The notes below the pieces were generated by a model. The model saw nothing but the letters and a program-made list of their open reading frames with translations, was not told the DNA's origin and did not search any database. 64,000 nt of DNA from Natrarchaeobius chitinivorans (GTDB lineage: Archaea > Halobacteriota > Halobacteria > Halobacteriales > Natrialbaceae), in contig NZ_REGA01000007.1 of NCBI RefSeq assembly GCF_003841505.1, positions 1 through 64,000 on the forward strand, in the 5' to 3' direction. How positions within the stretch are numbered: the first letter of the stretch is position 1; each line of letters starts with the position of its first letter. Shown in pieces: positions 7,971 to 25,021 of the stretch. Made by a program: the position numbers and the translations under genes.

Positions 7971-10838
7971 CTACACAGCCAATTCGGCGAGTTCAGCCTT
8001 GGACAGCGGATTAACCATGACTCGGTCGTTGTCAGCAGTGTAGAATATCGATGCCATCACGGTGCGATCACTGTACCACTCCTCGAGGACGTGGTAGTAG
8101 ACGCTGAGCTGGATTCGATACTCTGACTCGGCGTGACGGCCGAGATCAGTCTTGAAGTCGATAATCTCGACGGTATCGTCGGTCACGTGAACCAGGTCGA
8201 TAACCCCGGACAGTGTAACCTGTGTACCGTCAACCTCGAGCGGGAGGTACGCTCGCTCCTCGACCAGTAGCTCACCAGATAGTCCATCGAGGAACGTTTT
8301 GACGTGTCGTTCGTCGTCACTGGTGGGTGTAACCTCTTCACCGAGAGCGTAGTTTTCGGCGAACTCGTGTACGTGAGACCCGAAGTCCATTCCTCTCCCA
8401 TCGGAGACGTCCTCGTAAACGCTGTCGTCCATGAGCGAGTGTGGCGAATAGCCACGCGGTCCTGCCGGGGCTGGAATGTCGACGCTGAACGCCGTCTGCG
8501 TTTCCACGTCCACGTCGACGGACGAAACAGTCGGCTCGAGTTCGTCGATTTTGACTGGCAATTCCTCGAGGAACGTATTCGGCTCCTCTCCCGCCGCAAA
8601 CAACAGATGGTCTTCGGCGCGAGTCATCGCGACGTAGAGGAGGCGGCGTTCTTCGTCGTACTCGGTCGGCTGGCACAGTCGGAGGACGTCGGCTCGCCAG
8701 TTGTCGTAGACGTGTGGCTCACCGTGGGCGTCGGCGTAGCACTTCCGCTGACGGAGACCGATCGGCTCGTCGTACGTGATCGTTCCGCCGGACCCCCCGG
8801 AAGGTGGGAATTTGCCACTGTTCATATTCCCGAGAATCACGATCGGATGCTCGAGTCCCTTCACCGAGTGGATCGTCTGTACGGTGACCGAATCGGAGCC
8901 GGCAGCGGCCTCCACTTCCTGGGTATAGCCGTTGTCGACACCGTGTTCGATGATCCGGATCAGGTCGCCCCGCGTCATCGTCGTCGAGCGGTGGATCGAC
9001 TGGATCGTCGTGAGGACGACGTCCGCCGTCGACCCGTCGTATCCGTAGCGGTCGAACACACGCCGAGCAACGGCCGTGTGGGTCTCGAGTGCTGTGAGTT
9101 CGGAACGAAACGCATCCATTTCACTCGGATAGGCGTCGTGTTCGAGGACGTACTCGATCTCGTCGAGCGTGTAGCCGGCGCGCTCCAGTACGACCGCCCA
9201 CCCTCGTTCGGCCTCCGAGTTGGCCTCGAGGATCCGTAACCAGGCGAGCACCAGTTTCGCCTGATCAGTTCGGAAGAGTTCGATCCCTCCCTCGTACGCC
9301 ATCGGGAAGTCGAACGTCTCGGCGGTCGCGAGCAAGTCCCGCCCGAAATCGCGAGTTCGGGTGAGTACTGCGATATCGCCGTACGTCGGCGCTCGAAGTT
9401 CGCCGTCTTCTTCGACCGCATATTCGTCGTTGCCGACGATTTCCTGGATCTTTGTGAGGATCGCCTCGTGTTCGTCGGCGTGCTGGAACGCCTCGATTTG
9501 TGAGTGATCGTGGTCGGTGTTCGAAAACAGTGACACGATCCGCTCGAGAATCGACTTCTGGTCGATCGACTCGCGACTACTGCCCGGTGCTACGAGCGCG
9601 TGCTCGGAGAAGTCGAGGATCGACTGCGTCGAGCGATAGTTCTGCTCGAGTTCGATCGTGGTGACGGGTTCGAGCGGGAACGACACTCGCTCGGCATCGT
9701 CGTTCAGTTCGCCGGCAAAGCGCTGCAATCGAGCGTCGAACTCGGCGATGTTCTCGATCGCCGCGTACTGAAACGAGTAGATGCTCTGTTTCCAGTCACC
9801 GACAACGCAGAAATTGTCGGTTCCCGAGAGCAGCAGTGCGAGTTTGAACTGAATCTCGCTCGAGTCCTGAAACTCGTCGATCATCACGTACTCGAACTCC
9901 AGTGATTCGCGAAGGTCGCCGTCCTCACAACACAGGACGAACGCGAAGAGCTGAAGGAACGAGAAGTTCAGATAGTTCCGCCCGAGTGCGAACTCGAGGT
10001 ATTTAAAGTAGACGTCGTGGACGAACTCCACGAGATGATCGCGATCCTCGGTGAAGACCAGTCGAGCGACGTCTTCGGGGACCGACTTCGAGCCGTACTC
10101 ACCACGGAGTTCTCCTCGGTCGGGTGCATCCGGCAGATAGCACTTGTTCTTGCCATATCGGCCGAGACTCGAACGGAGTTTCGACTGTTTGTTGCCATCG
10201 TTTCGCGGCCGGTTCAGCTCGTCGAAGGTAGCTTTGAACGCCTCGAAGTCGCCCTCGAGTACGTCTCTGGAGTTGCGGTACCAGCCGTCTGCAGTCGGAA
10301 AGATGCCCTTCGAGGCGAGATTGTTGATGAGACTGAGCAGTTCCGTCGGATCCGAGAGGCAGCGAAGCAGGTCGTCGTATTCGTCGTGATCATCGCTAAA
10401 TCGGTCGACGAACTCGTGGAAGTACTCCCGTTCGATCGTCTCGTTCTCGAGGACCTGCGTCGAGCCGGTGATCGCGTCGTCGATACCGAGATACGAAGGG
10501 GCGTGAAAGCCGTGCTGGTCGAGAATATCGTTACACAGGCTGTGGAAGGTCTGAATCGGAGCGTCGTTTAGCGCCCGCATATCGTAGTCGCAGCTGGCGA
10601 CGATTCGATCTTTCATCTCCGACGCCGCATTGCGTGTGAACGTGATCAACAGGACGTCGTCGGGGTCGACGTCGTCCTGATCGACGATGTTCGCATACCG
10701 ATGGGTCACCGTGAACGTCTTGCCGGTCCCGGCGCCGGCGTCGACGAGGTACAGTCCGTCTGTGTTCTCGATGAGTCGTTGCTGACGTTCGTTCGGTGAC
10801 AGCCCCTCGTCCAGTGACGCGTCGGACGACGATGTCAT
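7971..10838 (-). CDS. AddA-like UvrD-family helicase with C-terminal nuclease domain
   Basis: The 955-residue protein begins with a UvrD/Rep-type helicase core. Walker A is AGAGTGKT near residue 35, Walker B is MIDEFQDSS near 318, EQNYRST and the C-terminal helicase motifs (TIHSVKGLEHPIVILGN, LLYVAMTRAEDHL) follow. The end is a PD-(D/E)XK nuclease: GSHVHEFAENY, then GVIDLVHV...VEIIDFKTD near 880-896. This is the plan of AddA and RecB, enzymes that resect double-strand breaks, though it is shorter than bacterial AddA (about 1200). It overlaps the AddB-like gene upstream by 4 bp (10835-10838), which argues for one complex. Both lie tail to tail with orc1, inside the repeat-bracketed module. A role in processing replication-linked ends is inferred. 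Confidence 0.85.
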   Translation of the reverse strand: MTSSSDASLDEGLSPNERQQRLIENTDGLYLVDAGAGTGKTFTVTHRYANIVDQDDVDPDDVLLITFTRNAASEMKDRIVASCDYDMRALNDAPIQTFHSLCNDILDQHGFHAPSYLGIDDAITGSTQVLENETIEREYFHEFVDRFSDDHDEYDDLLRCLSDPTELLSLINNLASKGIFPTADGWYRNSRDVLEGDFEAFKATFDELNRPRNDGNKQSKLRSSLGRYGKNKCYLPDAPDRGELRGEYGSKSVPEDVARLVFTEDRDHLVEFVHDVYFKYLEFALGRNYLNFSFLQLFAFVLCCEDGDLRESLEFEYVMIDEFQDSSEIQFKLALLLSGTDNFCVVGDWKQSIYSFQYAAIENIAEFDARLQRFAGELNDDAERVSFPLEPVTTIELEQNYRSTQSILDFSEHALVAPGSSRESIDQKSILERIVSLFSNTDHDHSQIEAFQHADEHEAILTKIQEIVGNDEYAVEEDGELRAPTYGDIAVLTRTRDFGRDLLATAETFDFPMAYEGGIELFRTDQAKLVLAWLRILEANSEAERGWAVVLERAGYTLDEIEYVLEHDAYPSEMDAFRSELTALETHTAVARRVFDRYGYDGSTADVVLTTIQSIHRSTTMTRGDLIRIIEHGVDNGYTQEVEAAAGSDSVTVQTIHSVKGLEHPIVILGNMNSGKFPPSGGSGGTITYDEPIGLRQRKCYADAHGEPHVYDNWRADVLRLCQPTEYDEERRLLYVAMTRAEDHLLFAAGEEPNTFLEELPVKIDELEPTVSSVDVDVETQTAFSVDIPAPAGPRGYSPHSLMDDSVYEDVSDGRGMDFGSHVHEFAENYALGEEVTPTSDDERHVKTFLDGLSGELLVEERAYLPLEVDGTQVTLSGVIDLVHVTDDTVEIIDFKTDLGRHAESEYRIQLSVYYHVLEEWYSDRTVMASIFYTADNDRVMVNPLSKAELAELAV

Positions 10839-13501
10839 CGACTCACCTCCGGTTTCCGCTCTGTGGCTGAAGTCGCAGAATCAGTCTGTGCGTCGTCTCG
10901 AGCGGATCGCGAGTCGGTGAGCAGCATATCGCGGTTGTTCACGTAGCGGTAGTTCGGCTCGCCGGCGCGGCCGGCGACGGGAAAGCGATCCTCGCCGCGG
11001 CGGTAGCGGTTCAACTCCGCGAGTTGCTCGTCGATGAACCGTTCGAAGTTGTCGAGATCTTCGACGAAATAGCCTTCCGTCCGATAGCCACAGAGATGTC
11101 TAAATGCCTGTACGCAGCCGTTTTTGACATACTTGTAGTCGCCGACGTCGTCGATCATTCGCTCGACGAGTGCCTCGCCGAACGGTGAGGCCGCCATCTC
11201 GTCTGCATCCCTCGTTCTGGGAATCTCGTGGGAATCGAACACCGTCAGATACGTTTCGTAGCAGGTCTTCGAGAACGTCTTATTGCAGTCGTTAGCGGCG
11301 TCTTCGCAGAGTGCATCGAAGACCGACCGGGACTGAACGAACTCGTCGAACGCGATTGGGTGGTAGGTCACCGTCGTGAGACAATCCTCGAGAGAGGCGT
11401 CTCCGCTGACGACATCGTCGATCGTCTCGAGGAAGTGGAAAAACGTAAACGCCAGTCGCTCGTCGGGCTGTTGGTGTCGCCAGTAGGTGAGATAGAGTAC
11501 CGCCTGGAAGTTTGGCCTGTCGCTCGGCGTCTCAATTGAGGCGTGTTTCGTGACTTGGGATGCAGTGTTCCTGCGTCCGCTCTTGAAATCGACCAGCTGC
11601 GTCGGCGACTGGACGAGGTCGATTTTTCCGTTGAGTCCCAGGCTCTCGTCTTCGAACCAGCGTTCAGTGACCGGTGAATCGACCGTTCGATCGAAGTACT
11701 CCGCGAAGAAGTTTCGTCCCCAGCCGCTCGAGGGGGTCAGGAACGTCGTATCGGATGGTGCGTGTTCGTCGAGGTACTCACAGATCGTCTCGAGTCCGAT
11801 TCGGTATCGCGTTCGGCGCGTCTCGATATCGACGTTCCGGTGGAACGCACGCGTCTCCTCGATCATGACCTCGACGACCTCCTCGAGGCGATCATCGTCG
11901 ACAGCCTCGGGATGATTCACGACGAATTCGGCGAAGTCGTGGAAGAGGTTCCCCTCGGCGAAGTAGTGTTTATCGGGCGTCTCGACGAGTCGCCCGAAAA
12001 AGTAGTCTCGTGGGGAGTTCGCGTACGCGTTGAGACTCGACTGACTGATCGTCTCGACAGATTTGGGTTCGACGTCCGCGGTAAGTGGTTCTGTCTCGAA
12101 TCCGTTGTCGACCGTTCGATCCGGGCGCGTGTGGCGAATCGACTCGAGGTCGCTGAAGCGCTCGAAGTCGGTCTCGAGAAGATCCTCGAAGTACAGACAC
12201 GGCGTGACGGGCGAGCCGCCGGCTGAATCCTGAACCAAATAGTACTGGTCGACGCCACTTTGGAGGAGCGACTGGAACCCCTCGATGTTTCGCTCGTACT
12301 CCTCGTCGCGATCGACCCATGGGCGGTTCGGCGAGTCGTGTGTCCAGCGTTCGTCGAGACCCAGATAGAAGACGACCGGTCGGTCAACGAACGAAGCCGA
12401 TTTTGCATCCGCCAGCAAGACCCCCTCGTTGTCCCGGTCGATCGGGACGTCGTAGGTCTCGAGATAGAACGTAAGCTGATCGATCGCCTTCGGAGTCATC
12501 GATTCTTCGAGCACGTCCAGATTCTCGAGTTCGTCGCGAAACGCCTCGAGCGTTCGTCCCGTTCGATCTTCGTATGCGTTCAACGCCTCCGCAAACGTGA
12601 GTTCGTTCGCCCGACTGGTGAACTCCTGGAGCCAGTCGACTTCCGAGTCGTCGACGTCGGAGAGACACTTCTCGTCGTGTTCGACGGATACCGTCGCACC
12701 GAGACACGTGAGCAACGGCTTGACGGACCGGACACGGGTATCGGAGCCAGCAGTCGTACAGCGGAGCAACTGGACGAACGCGCGGTGGTCGCGCTGGTCC
12801 ATGAATCCAGGGCCGCCGTAGTATGGAATCCCTGCGGTCTCGAGTGCCGATTCGACGAGCGGCGAGTACTCGCTCCCAGCGTCGAGCACGATCGCGATGT
12901 CAGTTGCGTTTTCACGCGTCACGGAATCGAGTACCGCGTCGACGATAGCCGCCGGTGACTCGAAGATTCTGAACGGCGGCATTTCGACGGGGGTGTCGGT
13001 GAATCGGTCAATCGAATCGTACTCCGTGGGAAGAATCGAACGCTCGAGGTTCGTCAGTTGGCGTTCGCCGACGACCGCGATCGACTCGTCTGAACCGACG
13101 TCGATCTCATAGTCTGCAAGAAGACGCGAGGACGTCTGCAGCGAGTCGATGATATCGACGACCGTCCGTGTCGCCGGCGTATCGAACGCCTCGTACTCGA
13201 AGATTCCGTCAGCGGTTCCTTCGTATTCCCAACACTGGAGGACGTTCCCGACCGTGTAGGCGATCTGCTTCCAGCTCAACTCGGTCTCGTCGATCACCTC
13301 GAGAAATGCGGTTCGGTCCTCTGCAGTTTCTCGTCGTCTCGTTGCGAGCCGTCGGGGTGTGATCGCGAACGGGCCAAAATGTGATCGCTCGAGGCGCCGG
13401 TTGAGAGCATCCGCGAGCGGTGAGTCGGGAACGATCACGAGGTCGTAATCGGTGACCTCCTGATACAGCCGATCGATCGATTTCGACTGCTTGAATAACA
13501 C
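10835..13501 (-). CDS. AddB-like nuclease subunit (PD-(D/E)XK)
   Basis: The GTG at 13501 opens 888 residues. The N-terminal half is a degenerate helicase-like fold without a clear Walker A, as in AddB partners. The C-terminal part has a nuclease domain: YFAEGNLFHDFAEFVVNHPE, then GLNGKIDLVQSPTQLVDFKSGRR near residue 625-645, giving the D...DFK signature. Several cysteines flank this domain (CEDAANDCNKTFSKTC, CVQAFRHLC). They could include the iron-sulfur cluster ligands known in AddB, though the exact spacing differs from what I remember. The ATG of the AddA-like gene overlaps its stop. Together they probably form a two-nuclease resection enzyme. Upstream lies the second direct-repeat copy. 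Confidence 0.78.
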   Translation of the reverse strand: MLFKQSKSIDRLYQEVTDYDLVIVPDSPLADALNRRLERSHFGPFAITPRRLATRRRETAEDRTAFLEVIDETELSWKQIAYTVGNVLQCWEYEGTADGIFEYEAFDTPATRTVVDIIDSLQTSSRLLADYEIDVGSDESIAVVGERQLTNLERSILPTEYDSIDRFTDTPVEMPPFRIFESPAAIVDAVLDSVTRENATDIAIVLDAGSEYSPLVESALETAGIPYYGGPGFMDQRDHRAFVQLLRCTTAGSDTRVRSVKPLLTCLGATVSVEHDEKCLSDVDDSEVDWLQEFTSRANELTFAEALNAYEDRTGRTLEAFRDELENLDVLEESMTPKAIDQLTFYLETYDVPIDRDNEGVLLADAKSASFVDRPVVFYLGLDERWTHDSPNRPWVDRDEEYERNIEGFQSLLQSGVDQYYLVQDSAGGSPVTPCLYFEDLLETDFERFSDLESIRHTRPDRTVDNGFETEPLTADVEPKSVETISQSSLNAYANSPRDYFFGRLVETPDKHYFAEGNLFHDFAEFVVNHPEAVDDDRLEEVVEVMIEETRAFHRNVDIETRRTRYRIGLETICEYLDEHAPSDTTFLTPSSGWGRNFFAEYFDRTVDSPVTERWFEDESLGLNGKIDLVQSPTQLVDFKSGRRNTASQVTKHASIETPSDRPNFQAVLYLTYWRHQQPDERLAFTFFHFLETIDDVVSGDASLEDCLTTVTYHPIAFDEFVQSRSVFDALCEDAANDCNKTFSKTCYETYLTVFDSHEIPRTRDADEMAASPFGEALVERMIDDVGDYKYVKNGCVQAFRHLCGYRTEGYFVEDLDNFERFIDEQLAELNRYRRGEDRFPVAGRAGEPNYRYVNNRDMLLTDSRSARDDAQTDSATSATERKPEVSR

Positions 13502-13539
13502 GATGCATAGCGGGTTGAATTACTAGACAATAAGTTTGT

Positions 13540-13692
13540 ATGTCAGCTGTTGCAGATTGTCCCCTCTGTATACAGCCGACATCGTGCTGGCAAACGAGAA
13601 TCTGGGCATCGATCGATGCGACCCTTTCCGCACTCGAGAAGTTCCACAGAGTAGAAGAGGAAGCAGCCATCAGCGAGACGTATAGTGGGTAA
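13540..13692 (+). CDS. Possible 50-residue protein (low support)
   Basis: ATG 13540 opens a 50-codon frame starting MSAVADCPLCIQPTSCW and ending in a helical, acidic stretch. It has three cysteines, two as CPLC. It is divergent from the AddB-like gene and stops ten bases before repeat copy B. There is no clear promoter or ribosome-binding site and no family I recognise. It may be a small zinc protein or chance. Confidence 0.28.
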   Translation: MSAVADCPLCIQPTSCWQTRIWASIDATLSALEKFHRVEEEAAISETYSG

Positions 13693-13701
13693 TCACGGCC
13701 T

Positions 13702-13998
13702 CAGAATGAGGGGGATAGTGGCACCCTCTCGAATCGCCAACAGCAGAGATACTGGAAGTGGAGGTGCTCTTGATACGACTCCAGTTACCCTACTCGGTAT
13801 TAACATTGTATTTTATGGGACAGCTCACATCGGAATTGTCTCTATTGGGGTGCTATCGGTTGTCCACACTGGTTTCTGCCGCTAACCAGAGATGAATCCT
13901 CAGAATTATTGGATACTATTAACCAACGGAAAATGGTTTTCTCAGCGTATGTTGGTTGATTTTCGATGATCGAATACACCCCGTGTGCGATATGATTT
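13702..13998. repeat. Long direct repeat, copy B (right border of origin module)
   Basis: This stretch aligns collinearly with 5792-6083 with many substitutions and small gaps. It keeps CTCTCGAATCGCCAACAGC, TTGTATTTT, GTTGTCCACACTGGTTTCTG, TTAACCAAC...GTTGGTTGA and CGAATACACCCCG. The divergence shows it is an old duplication, not a fresh insertion. Confidence 0.75.
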
Positions 13999-14073
13999 CG
14001 AAACCACTTCCGAAGATTCGAATATATTTGATATACCAGGAAACATATTGAGAGTGACCACCTATAGACAGGT

Positions 14074-14601
14074 ATGACTAGGTTCGATCCGGCACCCGCA
14101 TCCGACGATACGCAGCGACGATGGCAGACGGGAACAGATACGTTTGGTCGTATCTACGATGTCGTCCTTGGGATCACGTCTCCGACGGAGTACACCGAGA
14201 TTGCTGACCTTGCGGACTGTTCTCCAAATGCCGCGAAAAAGCATCTTGACCGGTTGGCGGAGATGGGCATCGTCCGAGCCGATCAGGACAGACGTCCAGC
14301 GACATACGAACGAAACGAGGGTTATCTCGAATGGCAGGACGCCAGTCGGATCGCAACCGATCTCCCCGTCGAAAAGATCATCAGCCGTATAGAGGACCTT
14401 GAAGCACAGCGGACGGAATACGAAGCGCGATTCGAGACAACAGACCCAACAGCTGTCAACGTGTTCGACTACGATGACCATGAAACGATTCACGAGCGGA
14501 TGACTGCAGTCAGCGAATGGCAGGGCGTAATTCGAGATATTCGACTGTACGAACTTGCACGCCAGCTCTCACAGAACGACGGGCATCTCATTCCAGCATA
14601 A
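14074..14601 (+). CDS. DUF7342-type winged-helix protein, possible antitoxin
   Basis: This 175-residue protein has an N-terminal winged helix (EYTEIADLADCSPNAAKKHLDRLAEMGIV) followed by a helical region with LEDLEAQ-type heptads. It resembles the haloarchaeal DUF7342 (ArsR-like) family of DNA-binding proteins. Its stop directly abuts the ATG of the next gene (14601/14602), a common antitoxin-toxin arrangement. The partner resembles TumE-type toxins, so this protein is likely the DNA-binding antitoxin and repressor of the pair. A TATA-like TTTGATATACC lies about 40 bases upstream. A decayed paralog is present at 25022. The toxin-antitoxin role is inferred from order and partner type. Confidence 0.6.
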   Translation: MTRFDPAPASDDTQRRWQTGTDTFGRIYDVVLGITSPTEYTEIADLADCSPNAAKKHLDRLAEMGIVRADQDRRPATYERNEGYLEWQDASRIATDLPVEKIISRIEDLEAQRTEYEARFETTDPTAVNVFDYDDHETIHERMTAVSEWQGVIRDIRLYELARQLSQNDGHLIPA

Positions 14602-15057
14602 ATGAGCCAGCCACCCGAGGATTCAGCGCCACACTCAACAGGCCCACCGGATCGACAGACTCTACGCCTGCTGGAGCGACATCTTGCATCAGATTCCCTC
14701 ATTATCGAGACCGCGTTCAATCCAGATCCCTACGAACCCCGGCTGGTTACTGGACAGCTCAACCCTGAACAATATCCTGACTCGGTGACTGCGGCCCGAC
14801 TTAACATCCGATGGTTCACAACTGGTGACTTCTCGATTCACTACGTAGAAGAACACGAGGATGGCACACTCTGGGAGTGTCGCTGGGACTGGCATTCGAA
14901 CACGCACAACACTCGATTGCACTTCCATGAGCCACCATCTGCCACCGAAGTCACTGACATCGAACTTCCATCACTCCACCCACTCGAAATATACTCGACC
15001 GTTCTTACGACAATAGCACCAGATATAAAGAATATTCTAATTTTTTATAAACCTTAA
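14602..15057 (+). CDS. TumE-like (DUF6516-type) putative toxin
   Basis: This 151-residue protein shows the pattern of the TumE/DUF6516 family. A strand-rich domain with RLNIRWFTTGDFSIHYVEEH precedes WECRWDWHSNTHNTRLHFHEPP, where histidines cluster, and a short helical end follows. Members are described as toxins paired with HTH antitoxins, and the upstream gene fits that partner. No membrane segment is seen. The 3' end runs into AT-rich DNA (TTTTTTATAAACC), which could serve as a T-rich terminator. Family assignment is by pattern only; a general ligand-binding role is possible. Confidence 0.5.
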   Translation: MSQPPEDSAPHSTGPPDRQTLRLLERHLASDSLIIETAFNPDPYEPRLVTGQLNPEQYPDSVTAARLNIRWFTTGDFSIHYVEEHEDGTLWECRWDWHSNTHNTRLHFHEPPSATEVTDIELPSLHPLEIYSTVLTTIAPDIKNILIFYKP

Positions 15058-15140
15058 CTTGATCAATTGCCGTTCTTGTAGGCGGTCCAACAATTGAAAC
15101 AACAACTACCCTTATCAAGGACGCATGCGTTGGTGTATGC

Positions 15141-15368
15141 ATGAGCACTTCAATTCGACTATCAGACGAGGCAAAGTCCCGCCTGGACATCTTCAAACGG
15201 GAGGGTGAAAGCTACGACGACGTAATCTTCCGACTTACGTCGACTGACAAGTGGAGTGGGTTCGGAATCGCATCAGGAGATCCTGAGGAGTCTCGAGAAG
15301 GCATGGATGAGATCCGAGATGGGCTACGTGGACGGATGGATCAGCACGTCGAGGAGATGGATCAGTGA
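15141..15368 (+). CDS. vapB: VapB-type antitoxin
   Basis: This 75-residue protein starts MSTSIRLSDEAKSRLDIFKR, a ribbon-helix-helix or AbrB-like N-terminus found in haloarchaeal VapB antitoxins (DUF7557 type). It ends with a charged tail that would wrap the toxin. Its TGA overlaps the GTG of the PIN-domain gene (GTGA at 15365-15368), typical for antitoxin-first operons. It should bind the operon promoter and neutralise VapC. The short upstream gap (15058-15140) holds AT-rich promoter-like DNA. The antitoxin call rests mainly on the VapC partner. Confidence 0.8.
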   Translation: MSTSIRLSDEAKSRLDIFKREGESYDDVIFRLTSTDKWSGFGIASGDPEESREGMDEIRDGLRGRMDQHVEEMDQ

Positions 15369-15781
15369 CGTTAATCGTCCTCGACAATAATCTTTTGAGC
15401 GATTATCTCAATGGAACAGACGACGCCAGAGAGTTCCTTGAGGAGTATGATCGATATAGGTGGGGAGTCCCATCTATCGTACTATTCGAAGCGCTCATGG
15501 GCTCACTCTATGGACATATAGATGCCGCTCCAGACGAAATTAACCACGCAGTCGCGACGTCGATGGATGTCCTCACAACGACACAGCGGACTGCAACCGA
15601 AGCTCATGACTTGCAATCAGAACTCCACGATCGAGGAGCACCAGTCGATCAGCTCGATGCACTGATTGCTGCCTCTGCCTTAGAACATGGTGGGAGGTTT
15701 GCGACAGCTGAGAAGCAGTTCTGGACAAAGGATGTCCAAGAAGTACTACCTGTAGAGGAGTACAATCCGCACCGAGTGTAA
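15365..15781 (+). CDS. vapC: VapC toxin, PIN-domain ribonuclease
   Basis: The 138-residue protein has the PIN fold acidic residues in order: D7 in IVLDNNLLSDYL, the glutamate of VLFEALMG near 40, and D98 with the following region (DQLDALIAASALEHGG). VapC proteins cut RNA, mostly tRNA or rRNA, when the antitoxin is lost. The start is GTG 15365, overlapping vapB. Length and motif order are normal, so it should be active. Being close to the replication origin and following another toxin-like pair, it probably helps keep this replicon in the population. The RNA target cannot be read from the sequence. Confidence 0.87.
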   Translation: MTLIVLDNNLLSDYLNGTDDAREFLEEYDRYRWGVPSIVLFEALMGSLYGHIDAAPDEINHAVATSMDVLTTTQRTATEAHDLQSELHDRGAPVDQLDALIAASALEHGGRFATAEKQFWTKDVQEVLPVEEYNPHRV

Positions 15782-15880
15782 TCTCCCAACGATTCACCGA
15801 CTTGATACAGAGGTGATTTTCACAGAGACGGTTTTATTGAGTCAAATAACTTGACTGGGCTAACTCACAATCCCTGTCAG

Positions 15881-16900
15881 TCAGGTTATTTTCTCGAATG
15901 CTAGTTCGCCAGCAGAGTACGTGTAACTCTTGATTTCGTTTTCTTCACAGTGTTCTGCAAGTTTCGATGGCCACACGCCCTCGTCGTCGAAGTCGCCGAG
16001 ATACGCAACGGTGACCGAATCTTCGTCGTCATTACCGCGTTCGACCACAACAGCCGTGTTCGGGTCGTTGTGACTGGTTTTGATGACGCGGTCACCCGGA
16101 ACATACGGGTTGTCGGCGAACTCGAGGTTTTCGTGTTTGTAGGTCCAGAGTTTGATTTCGGTGTCGACACAGTAGGATGCGAGTATCCCAGGGTGGTACT
16201 CGCGCCAGTCTGCGGGCCCTTTGTCGAGTGTGCTAGGGAATGCTACGCGAACGGCCTCGCCGTCTAGTTCCTGTCCGAAGGCACCGGTATTCTTCTCTGG
16301 CGGCATCACCTCGATGACGACGCCGACTGACGCGTCATCGTCACCCGTTTTAATCACACGGTCGCCGGGCTTGAACGGGTTCTCCGGTTTCTGATTCATG
16401 TATGCCGTGTTCGGCCCCAGCTCCTGTAACTCGTTCATCGGCCGCGCGGCGAGATGGGCTAGTTTTTCCGGTTCATCACCCGAGTACGTTGCTTGGGTCT
16501 TCACTTTCGACTTGAGCGTTTCAGTGCGTTCCCACCCTATCAGGATCAGTGCATCCTCGTTGTCCCGATGCCAGACCATCACGATGATATCGTCGTCGGG
16601 GTCGTTCTCCAACAGGTTCGCGGGGCGAAACGCCGAGACGTCCCTCGACGTCTTCACGTCCACTTCGTAGCCGAATACTTCGAAATCGTGCCCGGAGAAA
16701 CTCTCGGGATTACACCGCCGAATTGCTTCTTCGTTCTCCCACTCCCACATCTCGATCGGAAGGTACTCCCGGCAGAATTGCTCGAACGCAAGCTCACCGA
16801 GATTCCCAATTCGCTTCACGTCAATATCGTCCGCACCTTGAATGACCGCCTGGTGATTCGCTCGCTCTCGGTCGATCTCGTCCGGCGAATATAGATACAT
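15881..16900 (-). CDS. PD-(D/E)XK nuclease-like protein with duplicated C-terminal domain
   Basis: The start is set at ATG 16900, giving 339 residues; a TTG further upstream is possible. Residues 28-90 show a restriction-nuclease-like core: GNLGELAFEQF (E36), SFSGHDFEVFGYEVDVKTSRD with D72 and the D81-V-K83 pair. After a linker come two copies of an ~80-residue unit, at about 174-257 and 264-336. Each begins NPF/YVPGDRVIKT and ends IK-W/Y-TY. The units look like small beta domains and may bind DNA or protein. The gene stands alone, convergent with VapC, without a methylase. It could be a single-protein restriction or modification-dependent nuclease, or a repair enzyme. No named family is recalled. 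Confidence 0.6.
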   Translation of the reverse strand: MYLYSPDEIDRERANHQAVIQGADDIDVKRIGNLGELAFEQFCREYLPIEMWEWENEEAIRRCNPESFSGHDFEVFGYEVDVKTSRDVSAFRPANLLENDPDDDIIVMVWHRDNEDALILIGWERTETLKSKVKTQATYSGDEPEKLAHLAARPMNELQELGPNTAYMNQKPENPFKPGDRVIKTGDDDASVGVVIEVMPPEKNTGAFGQELDGEAVRVAFPSTLDKGPADWREYHPGILASYCVDTEIKLWTYKHENLEFADNPYVPGDRVIKTSHNDPNTAVVVERGNDDEDSVTVAYLGDFDDEGVWPSKLAEHCEENEIKSYTYSAGELAFEKIT

Positions 16901-17265
16901 TACACGTAGATTATCTATCAACAAGATATACTTTGGGTGCTAGTTATCACTACTGGAGTTGGGAACCCAATATCAATATTGTATTCGGGTTATCCAATCG
17001 GGTAGTTGGTGTTCTAATTGTGTGGTGAGGAGATCTGAAGAGAAGTCAACCGTAGGAGAGTTATCAACCAGATTAGTGAGTAGATCGGTAATTCCAGCGT
17101 TGCTCCGGAGCAAGATTGACCAAGAAGGTAATCCGCATATCCGACAGGAAGATGGTAACGAAATATGATATAGTATAGACCGGTCCAGGCTCGGGAATCC
17201 AATTCTGTTGGCAGTCAACCTGAGACTACCAGATCATCAGAACGAGCTAAAGAAATGGTCTGGCT
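16901..17265. other. Gene-free stretch, 365 bases
   Basis: AT-rich DNA between two reverse-strand genes. No frame with a supportable product was found, only short overlapping frames. The promoter of the nuclease-like gene should lie near 16920-16935 (TCAACAAGATATAC). Confidence 0.5.
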
Positions 17266-17631
17266 CTATGGCTGTCGCCCGGACCCACGTTCAGCCGATT
17301 TGAGATAGAGCGACCACGCGTCCGTCGGTTCACCCGTCTCTTTGTGTTTCACTTTCTGGAGTTGGATATCAAGCCGCGTGTTCATCGACTCACAATCGAC
17401 AAATGCTTTGAGCAGTCCCGCGATCGTCTCCACGAACTCTGCATCTCCTTTGATCCGTACGTCCGATATCGATTTATTGAACGTCTTCCCTTTCTGTCCG
17501 TACGGCTTTGGGGTGATAGCATCGACAATCTCCTCAGACGTCGGTTCTGATCGTTCCCGTAGCCACTGAACCGAATCATCCTTCCGCACATATTCGTTAT
17601 CCGTCCGCGGTAACTGTTCGAGATCAGTCAT
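17266..17631 (-). CDS. Conserved-looking hypothetical protein, 121 residues
   Basis: The longer open frame reaches 17793, but its first 54 residues are hydrophobic, AT-rich and unlike the rest. The ATG at 17631 (MTDLEQLPRTDNEYVRKDDS) is therefore preferred. The product is soluble and charged, with a SEEIVDAITPKPYGQKGKTF segment, a predicted helix pair (DAEFVETIAGLLKAFVDC) and a basic, strand-rich end (TRLDIQLQKVKHKETG). No catalytic motif or known domain is recognised. It is divergent from the SWIM-HNH gene, with about 186 bases between starts, so the two may share control. Confidence 0.5.
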   Translation of the reverse strand: MTDLEQLPRTDNEYVRKDDSVQWLRERSEPTSEEIVDAITPKPYGQKGKTFNKSISDVRIKGDAEFVETIAGLLKAFVDCESMNTRLDIQLQKVKHKETGEPTDAWSLYLKSAERGSGRQP

Positions 17632-17817
17632 CCAATTATACAGTCCACAGAACAGAACGATATAGGTTATTGCAAGTGGGATTACATTTATCCGGGTTTG
17701 TAACCGCACTAAGTAAAATGTATAGGTGAAAACTTGAGGAGGCGGCCAAAAAGCTATAGATTGTTTGTAGGAATATACATAGTGTCTGACCAATGATTGT
17801 GACGAATCACTCCCTCT

Positions 17818-18831
17818 ATGCCAGTTAACACGGACGACCTACCAACTGATCTAAAACGGCTTGATCGTGCGATTGAACAAGATATTGATATCATCGGTGA
17901 ATTTGAAAATGGAGTTTATCTAATCAATGGTAATAGAGATCTCAATTACCTAGTAAACATGAATGAGTTTACCTGTACGTGCCCTGACTGGCGGAAAGAG
18001 GGAGTCGCAGGTGGATGCAAACATATCCTAAAAGTAAGAATGCACGGTTCTGACGCACCATGTATTAGTATACAAACAGGAAGCAGAGCAACCAATAACG
18101 CGAGTGATTCTACAAGCTCTTCGTATCCAGGAGACTGGAGTAGCCGCCGCAAAAAAGTCCTCAAACGAGACGAACACATTTGTCAATCATGTGGTGCACA
18201 TGTAGAACAAGATGGAACCAATGCCGAGGTTCATCACTCGACCTATCTCAAAGAAGGCGGCTCAAACGACCTAGAGAACTTGCTCACGCTTTGTACAAGC
18301 TGTCACAAACGACTACACAGCAGTCCAGTCAAAGCCTCACAGGCTGTAACAGATTCATCTGAAAACTCCAGATCTACGGGCGCTAGTTCCAGCGATCATT
18401 CACCCTCGAGCCAAGAGACGCCAAAAGTGGACGCACCACCGGTAAATTCGCCATCCGCGGATAAGCGAACTCAAAGTTCGAAGAAGCCCCGTTCACTAAA
18501 CAGGAACACTTCCAGTCACCGACAAACCAAGTCAAAGAACAATAGTAAACATCCTCACCAAAAGCGAGATCACAATTCAAAAACACCGGCGACAGCAGCT
18601 ACCTCTACGGCTCAGCAAATCGATAGGGAGACAGTGGAAAATGAACACGATCTTGGTTTCTCCAGCATATTTCTTGGAGGGATTGTTTTATCCCTAGTAC
18701 TTTGGGGTACTCTAGAAGTTCTCTTGATGGTACTTAGCTCGATGACAACATGGTCAGCAACGCGCTTTATCTTAGTCCTTGGAATAGTGGAAACAGCGGT
18801 CATTGTCGGTTATCTCAACGAAGGAACGTGA
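17818..18831 (+). CDS. SWIM zinc finger - HNH nuclease - membrane anchor fusion
   Basis: This 337-residue protein has three clear parts. Residues 45-72 hold a SWIM finger (CTCPDW...GGCKH, ligands C53, C55, C67, H69), a small DNA- or protein-binding motif. Residues 105-168 hold an HNH nuclease domain with CXXC pairs at C122/C125 and C159/C162 and the histidines of EVHHSTY. A low-complexity Ser/Lys/His-rich linker (about 170-275) leads to two membrane helices near 281-305 and 313-332. A nuclease tied to the membrane is unusual and fits a sensor or invader-DNA role. The gene stands alone. Base composition is lower in GC than its neighbours, suggesting transfer. Function is inferred from domains only. 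Confidence 0.7.
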   Translation: MPVNTDDLPTDLKRLDRAIEQDIDIIGEFENGVYLINGNRDLNYLVNMNEFTCTCPDWRKEGVAGGCKHILKVRMHGSDAPCISIQTGSRATNNASDSTSSSYPGDWSSRRKKVLKRDEHICQSCGAHVEQDGTNAEVHHSTYLKEGGSNDLENLLTLCTSCHKRLHSSPVKASQAVTDSSENSRSTGASSSDHSPSSQETPKVDAPPVNSPSADKRTQSSKKPRSLNRNTSSHRQTKSKNNSKHPHQKRDHNSKTPATAATSTAQQIDRETVENEHDLGFSSIFLGGIVLSLVLWGTLEVLLMVLSSMTTWSATRFILVLGIVETAVIVGYLNEGT

Positions 18832-18832
18832 A

Positions 18833-18998
18833 TCACCTCGAGGTTACGTGGTTCGAAACGGCCCGTGTTTCGTCATCACGAAGATCTCTGATTTTCGAAT
18901 GATTCCGAGACATTCGTCCTGCTATTTCAGGGCTGACCACCGCAAATGTCGCATATATCAGCGCCACAAAAATAGCAATTGGAACGTACTCGAGTCGC
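18833..18998 (-). pseudogene. Possible remnant of a small membrane protein
   Basis: The reverse strand reads an open stretch containing EYVPIAIFVALIYATFAVVS, one membrane helix, followed by a charged tail ending at 18833. No normal start codon lies in frame before the helix; only a GTG inside it is available. It may be the end of a lost gene. Confidence 0.25.
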
Positions 18999-19113
18999 GC
19001 TGGGTCGAATTCTGAATCCGGATTCTCAGAACACCTTTAGCTCGAGTGAATAGAATCGGCGATCAATCCCCGAGGTATTCTCCAGTTGTGCTGACAAACC
19101 GGCGATCCGCGCC

Positions 19114-22100
19114 TCAGCCAAGTCGCGAGAGAAGCGCTGTCGCCCGGTCGTTCGCGTCGGCTCGGTCGACCCCGGTTTCGACGAGCCGTTCGACCATCCG
19201 AAGTCGGATCTGGTCGTCGTCTAGGGGGTCAGTCGGTTCGATGTAGCCGTTTTCCTCGAAATACGTCTCGAGTTCGTCGGTCTTGTCGCTGTGGAACCGA
19301 TTGACCTCCCCGTTTCGCAGTCCCTCAATGATCCCTTCGGCGTCACCATTGACTGATTCCGCGAGATCAGTGACCCTGTCGATGAAGTTGTCGCTGACGG
19401 CGCCGGAGTCCTCGAGGATCTGCCGGTCGACGGGTTCGCCGCGACCGACCTTCCATGCCTTCACGAAGGCGTCGAACCCGGCGGCGTTCTGTCGAACGGG
19501 TTCCAGTCGATCGGGGTCGTCAACGGCGAGGGCTCCGTTGCCGCGCTCGAGCAGGTTCTTGAGTTGGCCCCAGCGGTCGATCCCGAGTTTCAGCAATTCG
19601 TAGAGCATCTCGGGATCATCGACGACGTACCAGAGGTGTGCGGTTCCGGCCCCGCGATGGGGGTTGAACGACGGAACGTCCAGCTCCTCGCCGTAGGTTT
19701 CGTGATTGTGTCCGTCGGGGCGTGGCGGCTCGGGTACCTGGGCGGAAATCTCGTCGATGTCGGGTACCTGTACAGTTCGGTCGAGGTCGCGTGCGTCCGC
19801 CAGATCGATCACTGAGTGGTCGACGGCGTCAGTATCCTCGAGTGCGGCAAGCCACTTCGCTACCTCGTCGCCCTGTGCGGTGAAGTAAAACACCTGCCGG
19901 CCTGCTCGCGCGAGTTCGATCATCGACTCGATGATCACGTCGGCCCGCAGGTCGTCCGAATTTGCGAGTGTTTCGTCGAGGAGAAGCGGCAGCTGGACGT
20001 CTTGCTCCTGTTGCTCGACGAACGCGATTCGGACGGCCAGCAGCACCTGCAGACGGGTACCACTTGAAAGCTCGTCTAATGCAAAGCCCTTCCCCTTGGC
20101 CGTATCGAAGGCCCGGAACGAGGTTTCGTCTTCGTCGAGATCCAACCGATACCGGCCACGGGTGATTGTCGTCAAAATCTCTCGAGCGCGTTCGAAGACC
20201 ACCGGCCGACCAGCCTCCAGCGTGGTTTCCTGGACGTGTCCGACGAGTACGTCACCGACCATCGCAGCGGAGTCTGACTCGAGTTGGCCCCGAAGCGATT
20301 CCAGCGCACGCTCCTTTGCTGTGATCGCCGCCTCGACCGCATCATTGCGTTTAGCCTGGTCGATCTTCGTCTCGATCTCGGCGATATCGTCGCGGATCTC
20401 GTCGTATCGATCGGCGACCTCCACCGCTTCCCGCTTCTCGTCCTCAAGTTCGGGGACGGTTCGCTTTTCGAGGCCCGGATCGTACTCCGCGTACGCCTCA
20501 AGGTCGGAGCGTTCGTTCTCGGCGACGGCTTTAGCCGATTCGACGTCTTTCACTGCTTGCTCGTAGTCGTCGACCTGCTCGCACAGGTGTCGGAGTGCGT
20601 CACGGTCACCGGGCTCGAGATCGAGATCGATGAAGACGGTGTCTCGCTCTGTCTCGAGTGATTCGATTTTCTCGGTGGCCTCTTCGATCGTCCCCTGGGT
20701 GCGCTCGAGCGTCGATTTCGCCGACTCATGCCGACTCTCACGCCGTTCGAGGTCTCGGATCACCTCCGTCGCTGGCGCCGCGTCCGCGACGTCATCGTAG
20801 CCGTACGGTTCCAGCTCGGTATGGAGCTGTTCGCGGAGCGAAGCAATCTGTCGCTCGACTGACTCGAGTTCTTGCTGGAGCCCAACTACGTCGTCGTGGG
20901 CCTCCTGCCAGTCGAGGATCCGCTTCGTGAGGACAGTGAGTTCCACGTCGGTGGCGTCCGGACTCGCACCGAGTCGCTCTTGAAGCTCTTCGCGCGTCTC
21001 CTCGAGCGATCGTTGCTTTGCTTCGAGGTTCTCCTGGTCAGGGACGAGCGTTTTGTGCAGCTGGTTACGCTCTTGGGCCACCTCATACTGGGCAAGCGCA
21101 TCGTAGAGTTCGACCAGCCGGGCGTGGACATCGTCTTCCGTCCAGGAGTCCGGAGCGGCCACACCAGTCCCCTCGAACGACTCGCGGTATGGCCGCCGCG
21201 GATCGTGGCCGGTGTCCGTCGGTTTCCGGTTGCGGTAGCCGTACAGGAAGACCCCGGCCGCCGCCAGCAACGTCACGAAAAGTGCCGGATTGACCAGCAG
21301 TCCGAGCGCGATGCCGGCTACTGAGAGCATCGCAGACGAGACGAGGGCGATCCGATAGGCGGCATCGTCCGTCTCGGTATTGTCAGGTGACGGCGTCGCT
21401 AACCACTGCTCCAGCGACTGACTGGCCCGCTGCAGTGTCGCTCGATCACTGTCGAACCAGTCTACCTCTGCGTCCTCGAAGTGGGACTCGATCGCCGCTC
21501 GAGACTCGCGTTCGGCCCGCACTGACTCTGCCCGCCGGGCGAATCGCGAGACGTCCTTCCACGTGACGGGATCGAACTCAACTAGTTCGTCTTGATTGAC
21601 CTCGAGGGGGATATCATGACGAGCGTTTGCTCGAGACGCTTTGACACTTTCGAGCTCTGCCTCGAGATTCCGTTTCCGGTCTTGAGCCCCCTCGAGTTCG
21701 TCCCTGCGTTTCTTCAGTTGATCAATACGGCCGGTGGGGACGCCTTCGTTTGGAAGCTCGACGTCACCGAGTTGCTGGCGGGCCTCCCGTCGTTCAGCTT
21801 CGGCCGCATTTCGTTTCTCCGTCCATTCCTGAATTTCGTCTTCGAGTCCATCCACCGTCTTGAGTTCGTTGCCGTCGACGCGCTCGAGGACATCAGAGAA
21901 CTCGTCGAGTTCTGCCTGCGCCGCTTGCAGCTCGTCGCGGGTCTCGACGTACTCGATCGCTTGGTCGAGTAAGTCAACCTTCGCCTTCGCGTCTCTCGCT
22001 TCCTCGAGGGCGTCCTGGAGCGTCGAGAGCCGGTCCCGTTCCCGCTGAAGATCGGTGACGTCAGCCTGCGCCTCACGCCACTGCTGGACTGCGTTCTCCG

Positions 22101-22596
22101 CCTCTTTGACCTCGCTCTTGCGGCGCGTATTCGGCGTGTCGTCGTATCCCAGTTCATCGTGGACCGCCGCGAGGTCGTAGCCTCCGGCGGACTCGCGTTC
22201 GATGGTTTCGGCGAAGCTCTCGTTGCGGGTATCCTGCTGGAGGAGATCATGCAGCGAGAGCTGGTAGCGGTCGCGGTGGTCGGCGGTCGGGAGCGGTGGC
22301 CCGTTCGCGTCTTGGCCGTTGCGTTGGTAGGAGACACGTCCGCCGTCCAGTTCGATTCGCCAATCCGTCCCGTTTAGCGAGAGGGAGCCGAGGACGGTCG
22401 CTCGATCAGCGCTGGTCTCCGGCCAGAGCAGCCACTGGATCGCCTCGGCCATGGTCGTCTTCCCAGCCGCGTTCGGGCCGTGAACGACGTTGATACCCGG
22501 AGATACGTCCTCGACCGCGACCCCCTCAGACTCAAACCCAGGGGCGCGGACGAGGTCGACGCTGTCCAACGTGAGCCCCTCTGCGTCCTCGGTCAT
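19114..22596 (-). CDS. YhaN/Rad50-like ATPase with coiled coils and membrane helices
   Basis: The 1160-residue protein has Walker A GPNAAGKT (40-47) and then long heptad coiled coils (about 165-400 and 460-800). Two adjacent hydrophobic helices break the coils at about 413-452 (ALVSSAMLSVAGIALGLLV...). The ABC signature LSSGTRLQVLLAVRIAF and Walker B LPLLLDET lie near 835-870. This is the plan of SMC/Rad50 ATPases, and the mid-coil membrane pair is a YhaN feature. About 240 further residues follow the ATPase core, with helix-hairpin-like pieces; I do not recognise them. Its start overlaps the stop of the phosphoesterase gene by 4 bp. The pair should form an SbcCD/Mre11-Rad50-like DNA end-processing complex, perhaps at the membrane. 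Confidence 0.82.
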   Translation of the reverse strand: MTEDAEGLTLDSVDLVRAPGFESEGVAVEDVSPGINVVHGPNAAGKTTMAEAIQWLLWPETSADRATVLGSLSLNGTDWRIELDGGRVSYQRNGQDANGPPLPTADHRDRYQLSLHDLLQQDTRNESFAETIERESAGGYDLAAVHDELGYDDTPNTRRKSEVKEAENAVQQWREAQADVTDLQRERDRLSTLQDALEEARDAKAKVDLLDQAIEYVETRDELQAAQAELDEFSDVLERVDGNELKTVDGLEDEIQEWTEKRNAAEAERREARQQLGDVELPNEGVPTGRIDQLKKRRDELEGAQDRKRNLEAELESVKASRANARHDIPLEVNQDELVEFDPVTWKDVSRFARRAESVRAERESRAAIESHFEDAEVDWFDSDRATLQRASQSLEQWLATPSPDNTETDDAAYRIALVSSAMLSVAGIALGLLVNPALFVTLLAAAGVFLYGYRNRKPTDTGHDPRRPYRESFEGTGVAAPDSWTEDDVHARLVELYDALAQYEVAQERNQLHKTLVPDQENLEAKQRSLEETREELQERLGASPDATDVELTVLTKRILDWQEAHDDVVGLQQELESVERQIASLREQLHTELEPYGYDDVADAAPATEVIRDLERRESRHESAKSTLERTQGTIEEATEKIESLETERDTVFIDLDLEPGDRDALRHLCEQVDDYEQAVKDVESAKAVAENERSDLEAYAEYDPGLEKRTVPELEDEKREAVEVADRYDEIRDDIAEIETKIDQAKRNDAVEAAITAKERALESLRGQLESDSAAMVGDVLVGHVQETTLEAGRPVVFERAREILTTITRGRYRLDLDEDETSFRAFDTAKGKGFALDELSSGTRLQVLLAVRIAFVEQQEQDVQLPLLLDETLANSDDLRADVIIESMIELARAGRQVFYFTAQGDEVAKWLAALEDTDAVDHSVIDLADARDLDRTVQVPDIDEISAQVPEPPRPDGHNHETYGEELDVPSFNPHRGAGTAHLWYVVDDPEMLYELLKLGIDRWGQLKNLLERGNGALAVDDPDRLEPVRQNAAGFDAFVKAWKVGRGEPVDRQILEDSGAVSDNFIDRVTDLAESVNGDAEGIIEGLRNGEVNRFHSDKTDELETYFEENGYIEPTDPLDDDQIRLRMVERLVETGVDRADANDRATALLSRLG

Positions 22597-23894
22597 GCTT
22601 CGGCCTCCGTTTGTTCCAGCAGCGTATCGAGGACCAGCCTAGCCTGTGTTTCGAGCGTCTCTATCGCATCGTCTCTGTCGGGACGGTCTATGTCTGTCTC
22701 CTGCCTGAGCACGGTGTACGCGCTGGCGTTGTGGGCCTGGCGCATAGCGTCCAGTGATTCCCCGAGGAGTCGTTCGTTCTCGTCGCTCAGCTCGCCATTC
22801 TTGAGTTCTATGAGCAGCTTGGCGACGGCCGCGACCGCGTCGTCGCCCGTAGCGCGCTCCTCGAGGTCGACCTCCGGTCGCGTGTCGACTTCGACGGCCT
22901 CGATGCGGACGTCGGCCGAGCCCGCCCTGGTACCTAGCTGCTCCCGGATCGCGTCACTTCGATCGACGAGATCTGCGTGGGCTTCCGTCCGGCCCATGAG
23001 TCGGATACAGGGGAGTATGAGTTCCAGTGATCCGTGCCCCGACAACGACTCAACGTGTTCTCGGAGGCGGTCGGAGATTTTCGGCATGGCGGCCTTCGGA
23101 TCCTCGATACCGGAGACGTCGATCTCGAGGGTATCATAGCGGACTGTCGAGAGCGGGATCCGTTCAACAGCCGGCTGGTCGTTCGAGTCAATTGATAGCA
23201 ACCACGGACCGTGAGGACCTGATTCACCCGGATCAAGTGCCTGTGGTGATCCCGGATAACAGACCAACGGGTTGGACTTATTCGGGATCGACGGTCTGTG
23301 AATGTGGCCAAGCAGCCACGCCATCACCGGCTTCTCACGAAGGTCGGCGAGTTCGACTGGCGCATACGGGCTCTCCCGAGAGCCAAGATCGGCGTGCAGG
23401 ACGCCAATTCGCGGTACGTTGCTGTCGGGCAGGTCGTACGACTCAAGCGGGGACTCATAGACGTGCTCGTCAGGGAACGACCAGCCGTCGAAGCGGACGA
23501 GCGGCTGGCCGTCGCGCTCGAGAGTCCAGTAGTCCCATGTCCCGTCCTCCCCGAGTAGGTGGAGGCTCTCGAGCTCGAGATCGCGCTGGATTCGTGGAAA
23601 CACGTCGAAATCATGGTTTCCGGCCACTGCGACGACGGGAATGTCGGCGGCGTCAAGTCGAGCGGCGCCGTCCTCAAAGGCACCGTAAGCCTCGAAATAC
23701 TTGTTCTCTCGATCGGCGACGTCGCCGCTGATTGCGACCGCATCGACGTCGCGCTTGATGGCCTCTCGGACGATATCTCGCCAGACGGCAGTCGGCGAGA
23801 ACTCGGGACTATCTAAATCTTTGGGGATCCGACTGGAGTGACGTCCTAGGTGAATGTCACCCGTACAGAGGATCGTAATTTCATCCCGCACCAT
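22593..23894 (-). CDS. YhaO/Mre11-like metallophosphoesterase nuclease
   Basis: This 433-residue protein shows all calcineurin-type metal-binding motifs in order: D13-I-H15, GD58, GNHD 92-95, the histidine of LHADLGS and GHIHRP. Mre11/SbcD proteins use these for manganese-dependent nuclease activity on DNA ends. The region after the catalytic domain is acidic and helical and would contact the ATPase. It starts at ATG 23894 with TATA-like TATATAAATCC about 35 bases upstream. The following gene overlaps by 4 bp and encodes the YhaN/Rad50-like partner. The haloarchaeal mre11-rad50 pair is separate, so this is likely an accessory paralog used in repair or defence. Confidence 0.85.
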   Translation of the reverse strand: MVRDEITILCTGDIHLGRHSSRIPKDLDSPEFSPTAVWRDIVREAIKRDVDAVAISGDVADRENKYFEAYGAFEDGAARLDAADIPVVAVAGNHDFDVFPRIQRDLELESLHLLGEDGTWDYWTLERDGQPLVRFDGWSFPDEHVYESPLESYDLPDSNVPRIGVLHADLGSRESPYAPVELADLREKPVMAWLLGHIHRPSIPNKSNPLVCYPGSPQALDPGESGPHGPWLLSIDSNDQPAVERIPLSTVRYDTLEIDVSGIEDPKAAMPKISDRLREHVESLSGHGSLELILPCIRLMGRTEAHADLVDRSDAIREQLGTRAGSADVRIEAVEVDTRPEVDLEERATGDDAVAAVAKLLIELKNGELSDENERLLGESLDAMRQAHNASAYTVLRQETDIDRPDRDDAIETLETQARLVLDTLLEQTEAEA

Positions 23895-24950: not shown

Positions 24951-25021
24951 CCACTGCCTCTCCGATATAGCGGCCTACTCTCAAATTGAAAGTTCAGAGA
25001 CTCATATCCACGCCCAATACC

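Follow-up and report, generated by a model that had tools for sequence, protein, structure and literature searches.

A described precedent for the protein analysed here is HHPV4I, an endonuclease of the pleolipovirus HHPV4. Its report describes it as m6A-dependent, more exactly Gm6ATC-dependent, and its authors suggest a role in excluding other viruses (PMC10101028). HNH-like nucleases have likewise been reported from pleolipoviruses (PMC10599561). A stand-alone PD-(D/E)XK protein of haloarchaea, HVO_A0006 of Haloferax volcanii, is described as a fragment of a Type IIG enzyme with the motif D60-E75-K77, and as rare (PMC4389544).

We analysed a window of 64,000 nucleotides from the haloarchaeon Natrarchaeobius chitinivorans, in which one gene encodes a candidate nuclease of related design. 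Like HHPV4I, it is a single-gene nuclease with putative reader modules, and some members of its family are borne by pleolipoviruses. As described in its report, HHPV4I is built from an SRA domain, a winged helix and an HNH nuclease and depends on Gm6ATC, whereas the protein here pairs a PD-(D/E)XK-type domain with predicted SH3-like domains, and D12 methylases occur in 44 of 98 carrier genomes. Compared by published description, HVO_A0006 shares the format of a stand-alone haloarchaeal PD-(D/E)XK protein and differs as a Type IIG fragment whose D60-E75-K77 contrasts with D72-x8-D81-x-K83 here.

The protein belongs to a viral family that has so far carried no functional label. Pfam, NCBIfam and PADLOC gave no significant match for the 339-aa protein, and phrog_18072 (PHROGs v4, "unknown function") matched residues 2-337 at E 4.8e-179; this is the same family, matched end to end, with no function assigned in PHROGs. 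The PDB returned nothing by sequence and chance-level rows by two profiles (E 0.44-1.3). Among 50,697 phage records one, Halfgib1, carries the nuclease, and four scans of IMG/VR contigs found no relative. Stand-alone restriction-like nucleases with reader domains are a known kind. The pairing of this nuclease with SH3-like repeats and its repeated carriage by pleolipoviruses appear undescribed in the literature searched, where we recognised no paper on the family. Our analysis offers a proposed mechanism, and a test of it, for a family labelled "unknown function", and adds another kind of nuclease to those of pleolipoviruses (HHPV4I; HNH-like).

Nuclease motif and tandem repeat

The gene lies exactly where the first-pass annotation, made from the sequence alone, had placed it (Table 1). 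Its start codon is ATG, and the encoded methionine is invariant in an alignment of 37 rows, in which the protein stands with 36 sequences of 63-94% identity to it. The TATA-like element upstream would fit a leaderless archaeal promoter. The gene is single copy in the source genome (48 contigs, 4.57 Mb).

Table 1. Features of the nuclease gene, in window coordinates; fractions give the homologues that keep the residue
Feature	Coordinates	Strand	Remarks
Nuclease CDS (phrog_18072 family)	15881..16900	(-)	339 aa; PD-(D/E)XK-type with two predicted C-terminal SH3-like domains
N-terminal nuclease domain, residues 1-170	16391..16900	(-)	Alignments, conservation; full-length model of low confidence from residue 41
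E36 codon, putative helix glutamate of active site	16793..16795	(-)	80/80
D72 codon, putative active-site aspartate	16685..16687	(-)	80/80
D81-V82-K83 codons, (D/E)xK motif	16652..16660	(-)	D81 and K83 80/80
Repeat 1, residues 174-262, predicted SH3-like, strongly conserved	16115..16381	(-)	Profile comparison, model, conservation
Repeat 2, residues 263-336, diverged copy; missing from single-repeat relatives	15893..16114	(-)	
TATA-like element, 23-30 nt 5' of start codon	16923..16930	(-)	Sequence

Conservation supports the proposed PD-(D/E)XK core. E36, D72, D81 and K83, the residues proposed for it, are present in all 80 distinct near-full-length homologues, none of which lacks the acidic residues, and they are also kept in the more distant proteins L086, L087 and L089 (six-row alignment). 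The conserved E - D - (D/E)xK residues expected of the PD-(D/E)XK superfamily are thereby all found. Because residue 79, the second acid in some motifs, varies (E 49, T 19, K 8, others), the motif read from the alignment is D72-x8-D81-x-K83. The nuclease gene is under strong purifying selection: against seven relatives, dN/dS is 0.013-0.103 at dS 0.55-2.9, with 19 of 21 domain comparisons computable.

Fold prediction adds little to the motif. The full-length AlphaFold model places a helix at 26-46 and then strands at 73-75, 78-85, 105-111 and 119-125, the expected order, at low pLDDT (blocks at 50-67 for residues 41-140, about 42 for 141-170). Folded alone, the domain reaches a mean pLDDT of 50, worse than within the full-length model. 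Its structural matches are weak: influenza PA endonuclease at probability 0.54 (Foldseek) and a Rai1-Rat1 entry at Z 6.1 (VIA-align). We take PA endonuclease and Rai1 to be members of the PD-(D/E)XK superfamily. The assignment as a putative nuclease is therefore based on the motif pattern and not on the fold.

Paralogues share the nuclease domain and have another C-terminus or none (L086 905-1897, L087 7944-9020, L088 7712-8815, L089 7891-8583). The open frames of L086 (331 aa) and L087 (359 aa) end in different C-termini, that of L089 spans 231 aa, and L088, which lay outside the alignment, looks near-identical to L087. In these proteins the nuclease domain may be joined to different readers. 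Outside Halobacteria we saw weak matches of the domain to proteins of about 190 aa and nothing else.

The tandem repeat is real and no chance resemblance: copy 2 is recovered from the same protein with a profile made from copy 1, and hhalign aligns the two over 73 columns at 41% identity (probability 99.6%, E 1.2e-23). Both copies contain PGDRVIKT, as noted in the first reading (residues 178-185 and 268-275 of the 339-aa protein), and each closes with a TY motif (..LWTY.. in copy 1, ..SYTY.. in copy 2). The tandem pair stands as first described, and its boundaries, given then as 174-257 and 264-336, are better set at about 174-262 and 263-336. An origin by internal duplication, also proposed at that stage, agrees with the 41% identity between the copies as against 17-32% for 14 outside members of the domain family.

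The two copies are conserved to different degrees. Across the 80 distinct homologues, the mean modal-residue fraction is 0.85 in the nuclease part, 0.79 in repeat 1 and 0.58 in repeat 2; F221, W232, Y243 and Y254 are each kept in at least 79. Two repeats occur in 63 of these sequences and one in 17. Repeat 2 has undergone more than one loss or gain, since the tree, a quick one with many weak forks, shows at least five changes in the number of repeats.

Fold and recurrence of the repeat domain

Each repeat is predicted to form an SH3-like (Tudor/KOW-like) barrel. The repeats are modelled at pLDDT 74-91 in blocks of ten, with one repeat-1 loop at 49. In the PDB, most of the best 50 Foldseek rows are tandem Tudor/Agenet proteins, headed by ZGPAT (probability 0.99) and including ADCP1 (0.97), 53BP1 and SETDB1, all of low significance and none reaching E<=0.001. 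VIA-align gives its best Z, 7.4, to UBE2O and R67 DHFR, followed by Spt5 KOW, UHRF1, MRG15 and PWWP; these matches mainly cover residues 262-339, and their Z lies under the level at which fold alone convinces. Most rows listed by the two structure searches are Tudor, Agenet, KOW or other SH3-like barrels. The SH3- or KOW-like barrel suggested at first reading is thus the predicted fold, with matches of low significance. ADCP1, 53BP1, SETDB1 and Spt5 resemble the protein here in having two SH3-like barrels, which are predicted in our case; they differ in being protein readers or transcription-factor domains, and the likeness is a weak structural match with no match in sequence.

A viral structure library gave a more significant neighbour. 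With the full model as query, its top row is a 144-aa protein of the tailed halovirus HHTV-2 (probability 1.00, E 1.7e-4). A protein consisting of the domain alone, used as a sequence query, finds HHTV2_83, also of 144 aa (E 2e-4, 39% over a third of the query), and a second such query found nothing. From virus and length we infer that the two HHTV-2 proteins are one and the same. HHTV2_83 (L241 1042-1476) matches the domain in part and adjoins an HTH gene.

The domain is not peculiar to this nuclease. It had been presented as a new domain of the enzyme, and a profile search with the repeat unit finds it joined to HNH, ParB-like, SWIM or weak C2H2-like modules, or nearly alone; haloarchaeal ParB-like, SWIM and near-solo proteins with the same domain rule out its restriction to nucleases. 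Profile searches join it to an HNH nuclease in L146, L150 and L151, and to a ParB-like module in L139 (from the source genome), L140 and L147-L149, with Pfam below cut-off in the two scanned. It accompanies a SWIM zinc finger by Pfam in L153 and weak C2H2-like fingers in L092, and it forms small proteins with a short extension in L090, L141-L143 and L145. No Pfam model above cut-off matches the domain in the proteins scanned. By eye, L212-L215 and L217-L222 combine a CxC..CxH SWIM-like pattern with a diverged copy of the SH3-like domain.

The domain profile matches 60 of 145 haloarchaeal genomes, nuclease copies counted in, and 26 of 196 genomes phylum-wide, one of which, G417 (a 114-aa frame), is only distantly related. 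The viral HNH family phrog_2118 matches the domain in its N-terminal part. These HNH endonucleases and the fusions in L146, L150 and L151 carry the same SH3-like domain at the N-terminus and differ from the present protein in their HNH catalytic domain and their single domain copy. In L003 and L151 an HNH fusion protein lies less than 200 bases from the nuclease frame.

Genomic context and proviral carriage

The nuclease is widespread and patchy among haloarchaea. In a sample of one genome per species, 131 of 391 genomes, representing 54 of the 86 genera covered, have a match at E<=0.01. Near-full-length copies, whose match covers at least 262 of 338 model positions, occur in 98 of the 391, a count made by hand that includes rows with stops inside the matched stretch (for example G054, G217 and G386). 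The remaining 33 matches are partial: fragments, gapped assemblies, domain-only hits and distant paralogues. Two copies (L046, G247) seem, by eye, to be interrupted by transposase-like frames. The long open frame in L043 does not represent a longer protein; its apparent extension is translated from a stretch of N in the assembly. The source copy and four others form a fully supported group in the tree, and because one of these comes from a metagenome-assembled Halovenus (L004, 91%), the grouping suggests horizontal transfer, unless that bin is wrong. Carriage on plasmids is also seen.

No gene accompanies the nuclease constantly. Across 54 loci, some from the same or sister genomes, no neighbour family beyond the gene itself occurs in more than 11, which rules out a constant operon partner and supports the single-gene architecture first proposed. 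The commonest neighbouring methylase family is found at 7 of the 54 loci. No methyltransferase was seen among 19 window genes between 201 and 32036 searched with Pfam, a set that includes the nuclease and is a selection of the open frames, in keeping with the earlier remark that no methylase lies nearby.

Across genomes, methylases likewise show no association with the nuclease. The C5-methylase family PF00145 occurs in 50 of 98 carriers and 133 of 293 other genomes (p 0.35), the D12/Dam-type family PF02086 in 44 of 98 and 102 of 293 (p 0.09), neither test being corrected for phylogeny, and this lack of association rules out an obligate restriction-modification pair with a Dam- or C5-type methylase. 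The source genome has no match to either of these two families at E<=1e-10. Neither family is present in 35 of the 98 carriers, which speaks against them as obligate protectors. Since carriers possess such methylases no less often than other genomes, general dependence on Dam or C5 methylation is also unlikely. The architecture would suit a Type IV enzyme, with a predicted nuclease and putative reader repeats in one chain and no methylase as a constant neighbour. The stand-alone system proposed in the first-pass annotation is upheld in being restriction-like and set among defence genes; it may be modification-dependent, and the C5 methylases in 50 and the D12 methylases in 44 of 98 carriers speak against a broadly methyl-dependent enzyme.

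The neighbours of the nuclease are rich in defence genes. At 37 loci outside proviruses, 141 near neighbours were compared, of which 133 match 214 PADLOC families at E<=1e-10, as against 11 families for 133 genes in ten arbitrarily chosen stretches of the source genome; these counts are of models, which are redundant, and not of proteins, the control comes from one genome, and seven Halorubrum loci in the set share one methylase-plus-restriction cluster.

In a subset of the family, the nuclease is interchangeable cargo of pleolipovirus proviruses, a context absent from the earlier annotation. Halfgib1, an active provirus of Haloferax gibbonsii by its report (PMC7911831), carries a single-repeat copy. 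At least one pleolipovirus core gene lies in the fetched stretch at 10 of 48 loci, several from one genus. With VP8 of HRPV-1, a virus in which no copy of the nuclease was found, as an independent query, we obtained 20 matches at E<1e-30. The search covered 80 carrier genomes, made up of every one of the 16 whose copy has a single repeat (about 265 aa) and 64 of the remaining 82. The nuclease is 255-3545 bp away from 16 of the matches, and the other 4 fall outside that range. A profile from nuclease-adjacent NTPases, biased by construction, places 18 of 23 matches (E<1e-60) within about 3.5 kb. VP8-NTPase and integrase genes are present together in 17 distinct loci, and in 16 of these, all except L033, the nuclease lies between the two, inside the provirus. 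Small winged-helix genes precede it on the same strand in at least seven loci.

Single-repeat copies tend to lie in provirus loci, and the surroundings of proviral copies vary. Provirus loci account for 14 of 17 single-repeat and 8 of 63 two-repeat distinct sequences (Fisher p 1e-7, ignoring relatedness, and with the single-repeat loci fetched on purpose). Haloferax proviruses share backbones of 91-97% DNA identity over matched stretches and differ in their fillings: two in G267 have another small gene in place of the nuclease, one of them also another integrase, and that of G190 has the nuclease without dcm or SIR2. The cargo block of Halfgib1 (L050 8994-14219) combines the nuclease with a Type II REase (E 3.1e-30), a C5 methylase (5.2e-107) and SIR2 (1.5e-52). 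Its dcm was considered as a partner of the nuclease and rejected, its neighbour 8994-10115(-) being the Type II REase. Ten genes close to the nuclease at provirus loci were compared with PADLOC; six match at E<=0.01, including PDC-S59, PDC-S45 and PDC-M19A candidates, and four have no match. The source copy itself has no Halfgib1-like core gene within 8001-26000. The slot between the VP8-NTPase and integrase genes is worth searching for further archaeal defence genes that are new.

Candidate functions and window neighbours

We lean, with confidence a little above even, towards a stand-alone, single-gene, restriction-like defence nuclease that reads one fixed feature. The repeat pair would bring the nuclease to a feature of invading DNA, or of a protein bound to it, that is absent from the host genome, and the N-terminal domain would then cut in a metal-dependent manner. 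Repeat 1, conserved and present in every near-full-length member, would be the main sensor, and repeat 2 an auxiliary copy that can be lost. A lone nuclease of this kind must tell self from non-self without a partner; borne by a provirus, it would protect the lysogen against competing viruses. Protein sequence changes very little in the nuclease and in repeat 1, whereas silent sites are heavily diverged; the target is therefore probably a single constant feature, chemical or structural, and not a sequence motif that diversifies. Candidates that would fit are one of the less common base modifications, a structure in the DNA and a conserved protein bound to it. The likeliest target would be a modified base, general Dam-GATC and C5-methylcytosine aside, and we rate modification somewhat higher because of the HHPV4I precedent and the Tudor domains found with nucleases in BREX-related defence helicases. 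Patchy spread, partial copies, defence neighbours and provirus carriage probably fit a defence nuclease, its activity being predicted.

The Tudor-like pair could instead detect a protein (methylated or bound to RNA polymerase) or a ligand made during infection, after which the nuclease would degrade the cell's own DNA as an abortive or conditional effector. We consider this rather unlikely, although most of the best 50 structural matches are tandem Tudor/Agenet protein readers, the same domain occurs with ParB-like and SWIM modules, and RapA and BREX-related Swi2/Snf2 helicases are described as bearing Tudor domains, some with an active PD-(D/E)XK nuclease (PMC12839542); those Tudor matches are of low significance, and matches to the gene spread over 54 of 86 sampled genera. 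A Type II-like enzyme that cuts an unmodified motif, with a host that either lacks the motif or is protected by a methylase that is unlinked or an orphan, would account for the restriction-like architecture, and orphan methylases are reported as common in haloarchaea, a CTAG methylase, one such candidate protector, being counted in 174 of 217 genomes (PMC6471742). The cognate methylase expected in the same locus is missing as a rule (7 of 54 loci for the commonest family), the dcm of Halfgib1 adjoins a Type II REase of its own, and the 35 of 98 carriers without PF00145 and PF02086 weigh in the same direction, which makes this reading distinctly improbable.

Two readings do without defence altogether. 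Proximity to an integrase gene in proviruses and carriage on plasmids would suit a structure-specific nuclease that serves these elements in resolution, replication or integration, but related Haloferax proviruses (91-97% identical DNA in matched stretches) lack the gene, the stretch fetched around 58 of 80 distinct copies is free of pleolipovirus core genes, and the neighbours are rich in defence genes; we give it a slim chance. An enzyme of host nucleic-acid processing, such as repair, with defence neighbours by accident, is very improbable in our judgement: strong purifying selection and the DNA-repair-like neighbours in the window speak for it, and its uneven distribution (any match in 131 of 391 genomes, near full length in 98), copies that are partial or seem interrupted, and viral carriage speak against it.

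A wider form of the defence reading is improbable. The haloarchaeal SH3-like domain could be a general reader of a DNA-bound mark, either a modified base or a methylated chromatin protein; the enzyme would then be a Tudor-guided prokaryotic restriction nuclease, carried by pleolipoviruses to exclude rivals. If true, this would amount to a check of self against non-self through a mark not yet described in archaea. The ligand of the domain, once found, would inform several haloarchaeal protein families together.

The window holds further genes of DNA metabolism and defence around the nuclease. A HNH_2 protein at 4042-5031 (-) (E 1.5e-13) has a weak match to a winged-helix-like model; it was considered as a relative of HHPV4I and set aside, two records matching, neither a pleolipovirus. 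DUF7342, a winged-helix gene, lies with a small partner at 14074-15057 (+), and relatives of both occur near the nuclease in L022 and L042. A PIN-domain, VapC-like gene (E 3e-12) occupies 15365-15781 (+). Next but one to the nuclease, 17818-18831 (+) encodes a SWIM zinc finger just under cut-off followed by an HNH domain (E 6.5e-12) that partly resembles the HNH of IscB and ZorE. At 19114-23894 (-), a Rad50/SMC-like ATPase (best PADLOC match LmuB, E 1.8e-17) overlaps a Mre11/SbcD-like phosphoesterase, a possible SbcCD- or Lamassu-like pair. An AddA/AddB-like pair at 7971-13501 (-) comprises a UvrD helicase with PD-(D/E)XK and a second, PD-(D/E)XK_1 protein, and relatives of both genes lie near the nuclease in L018 and L046.
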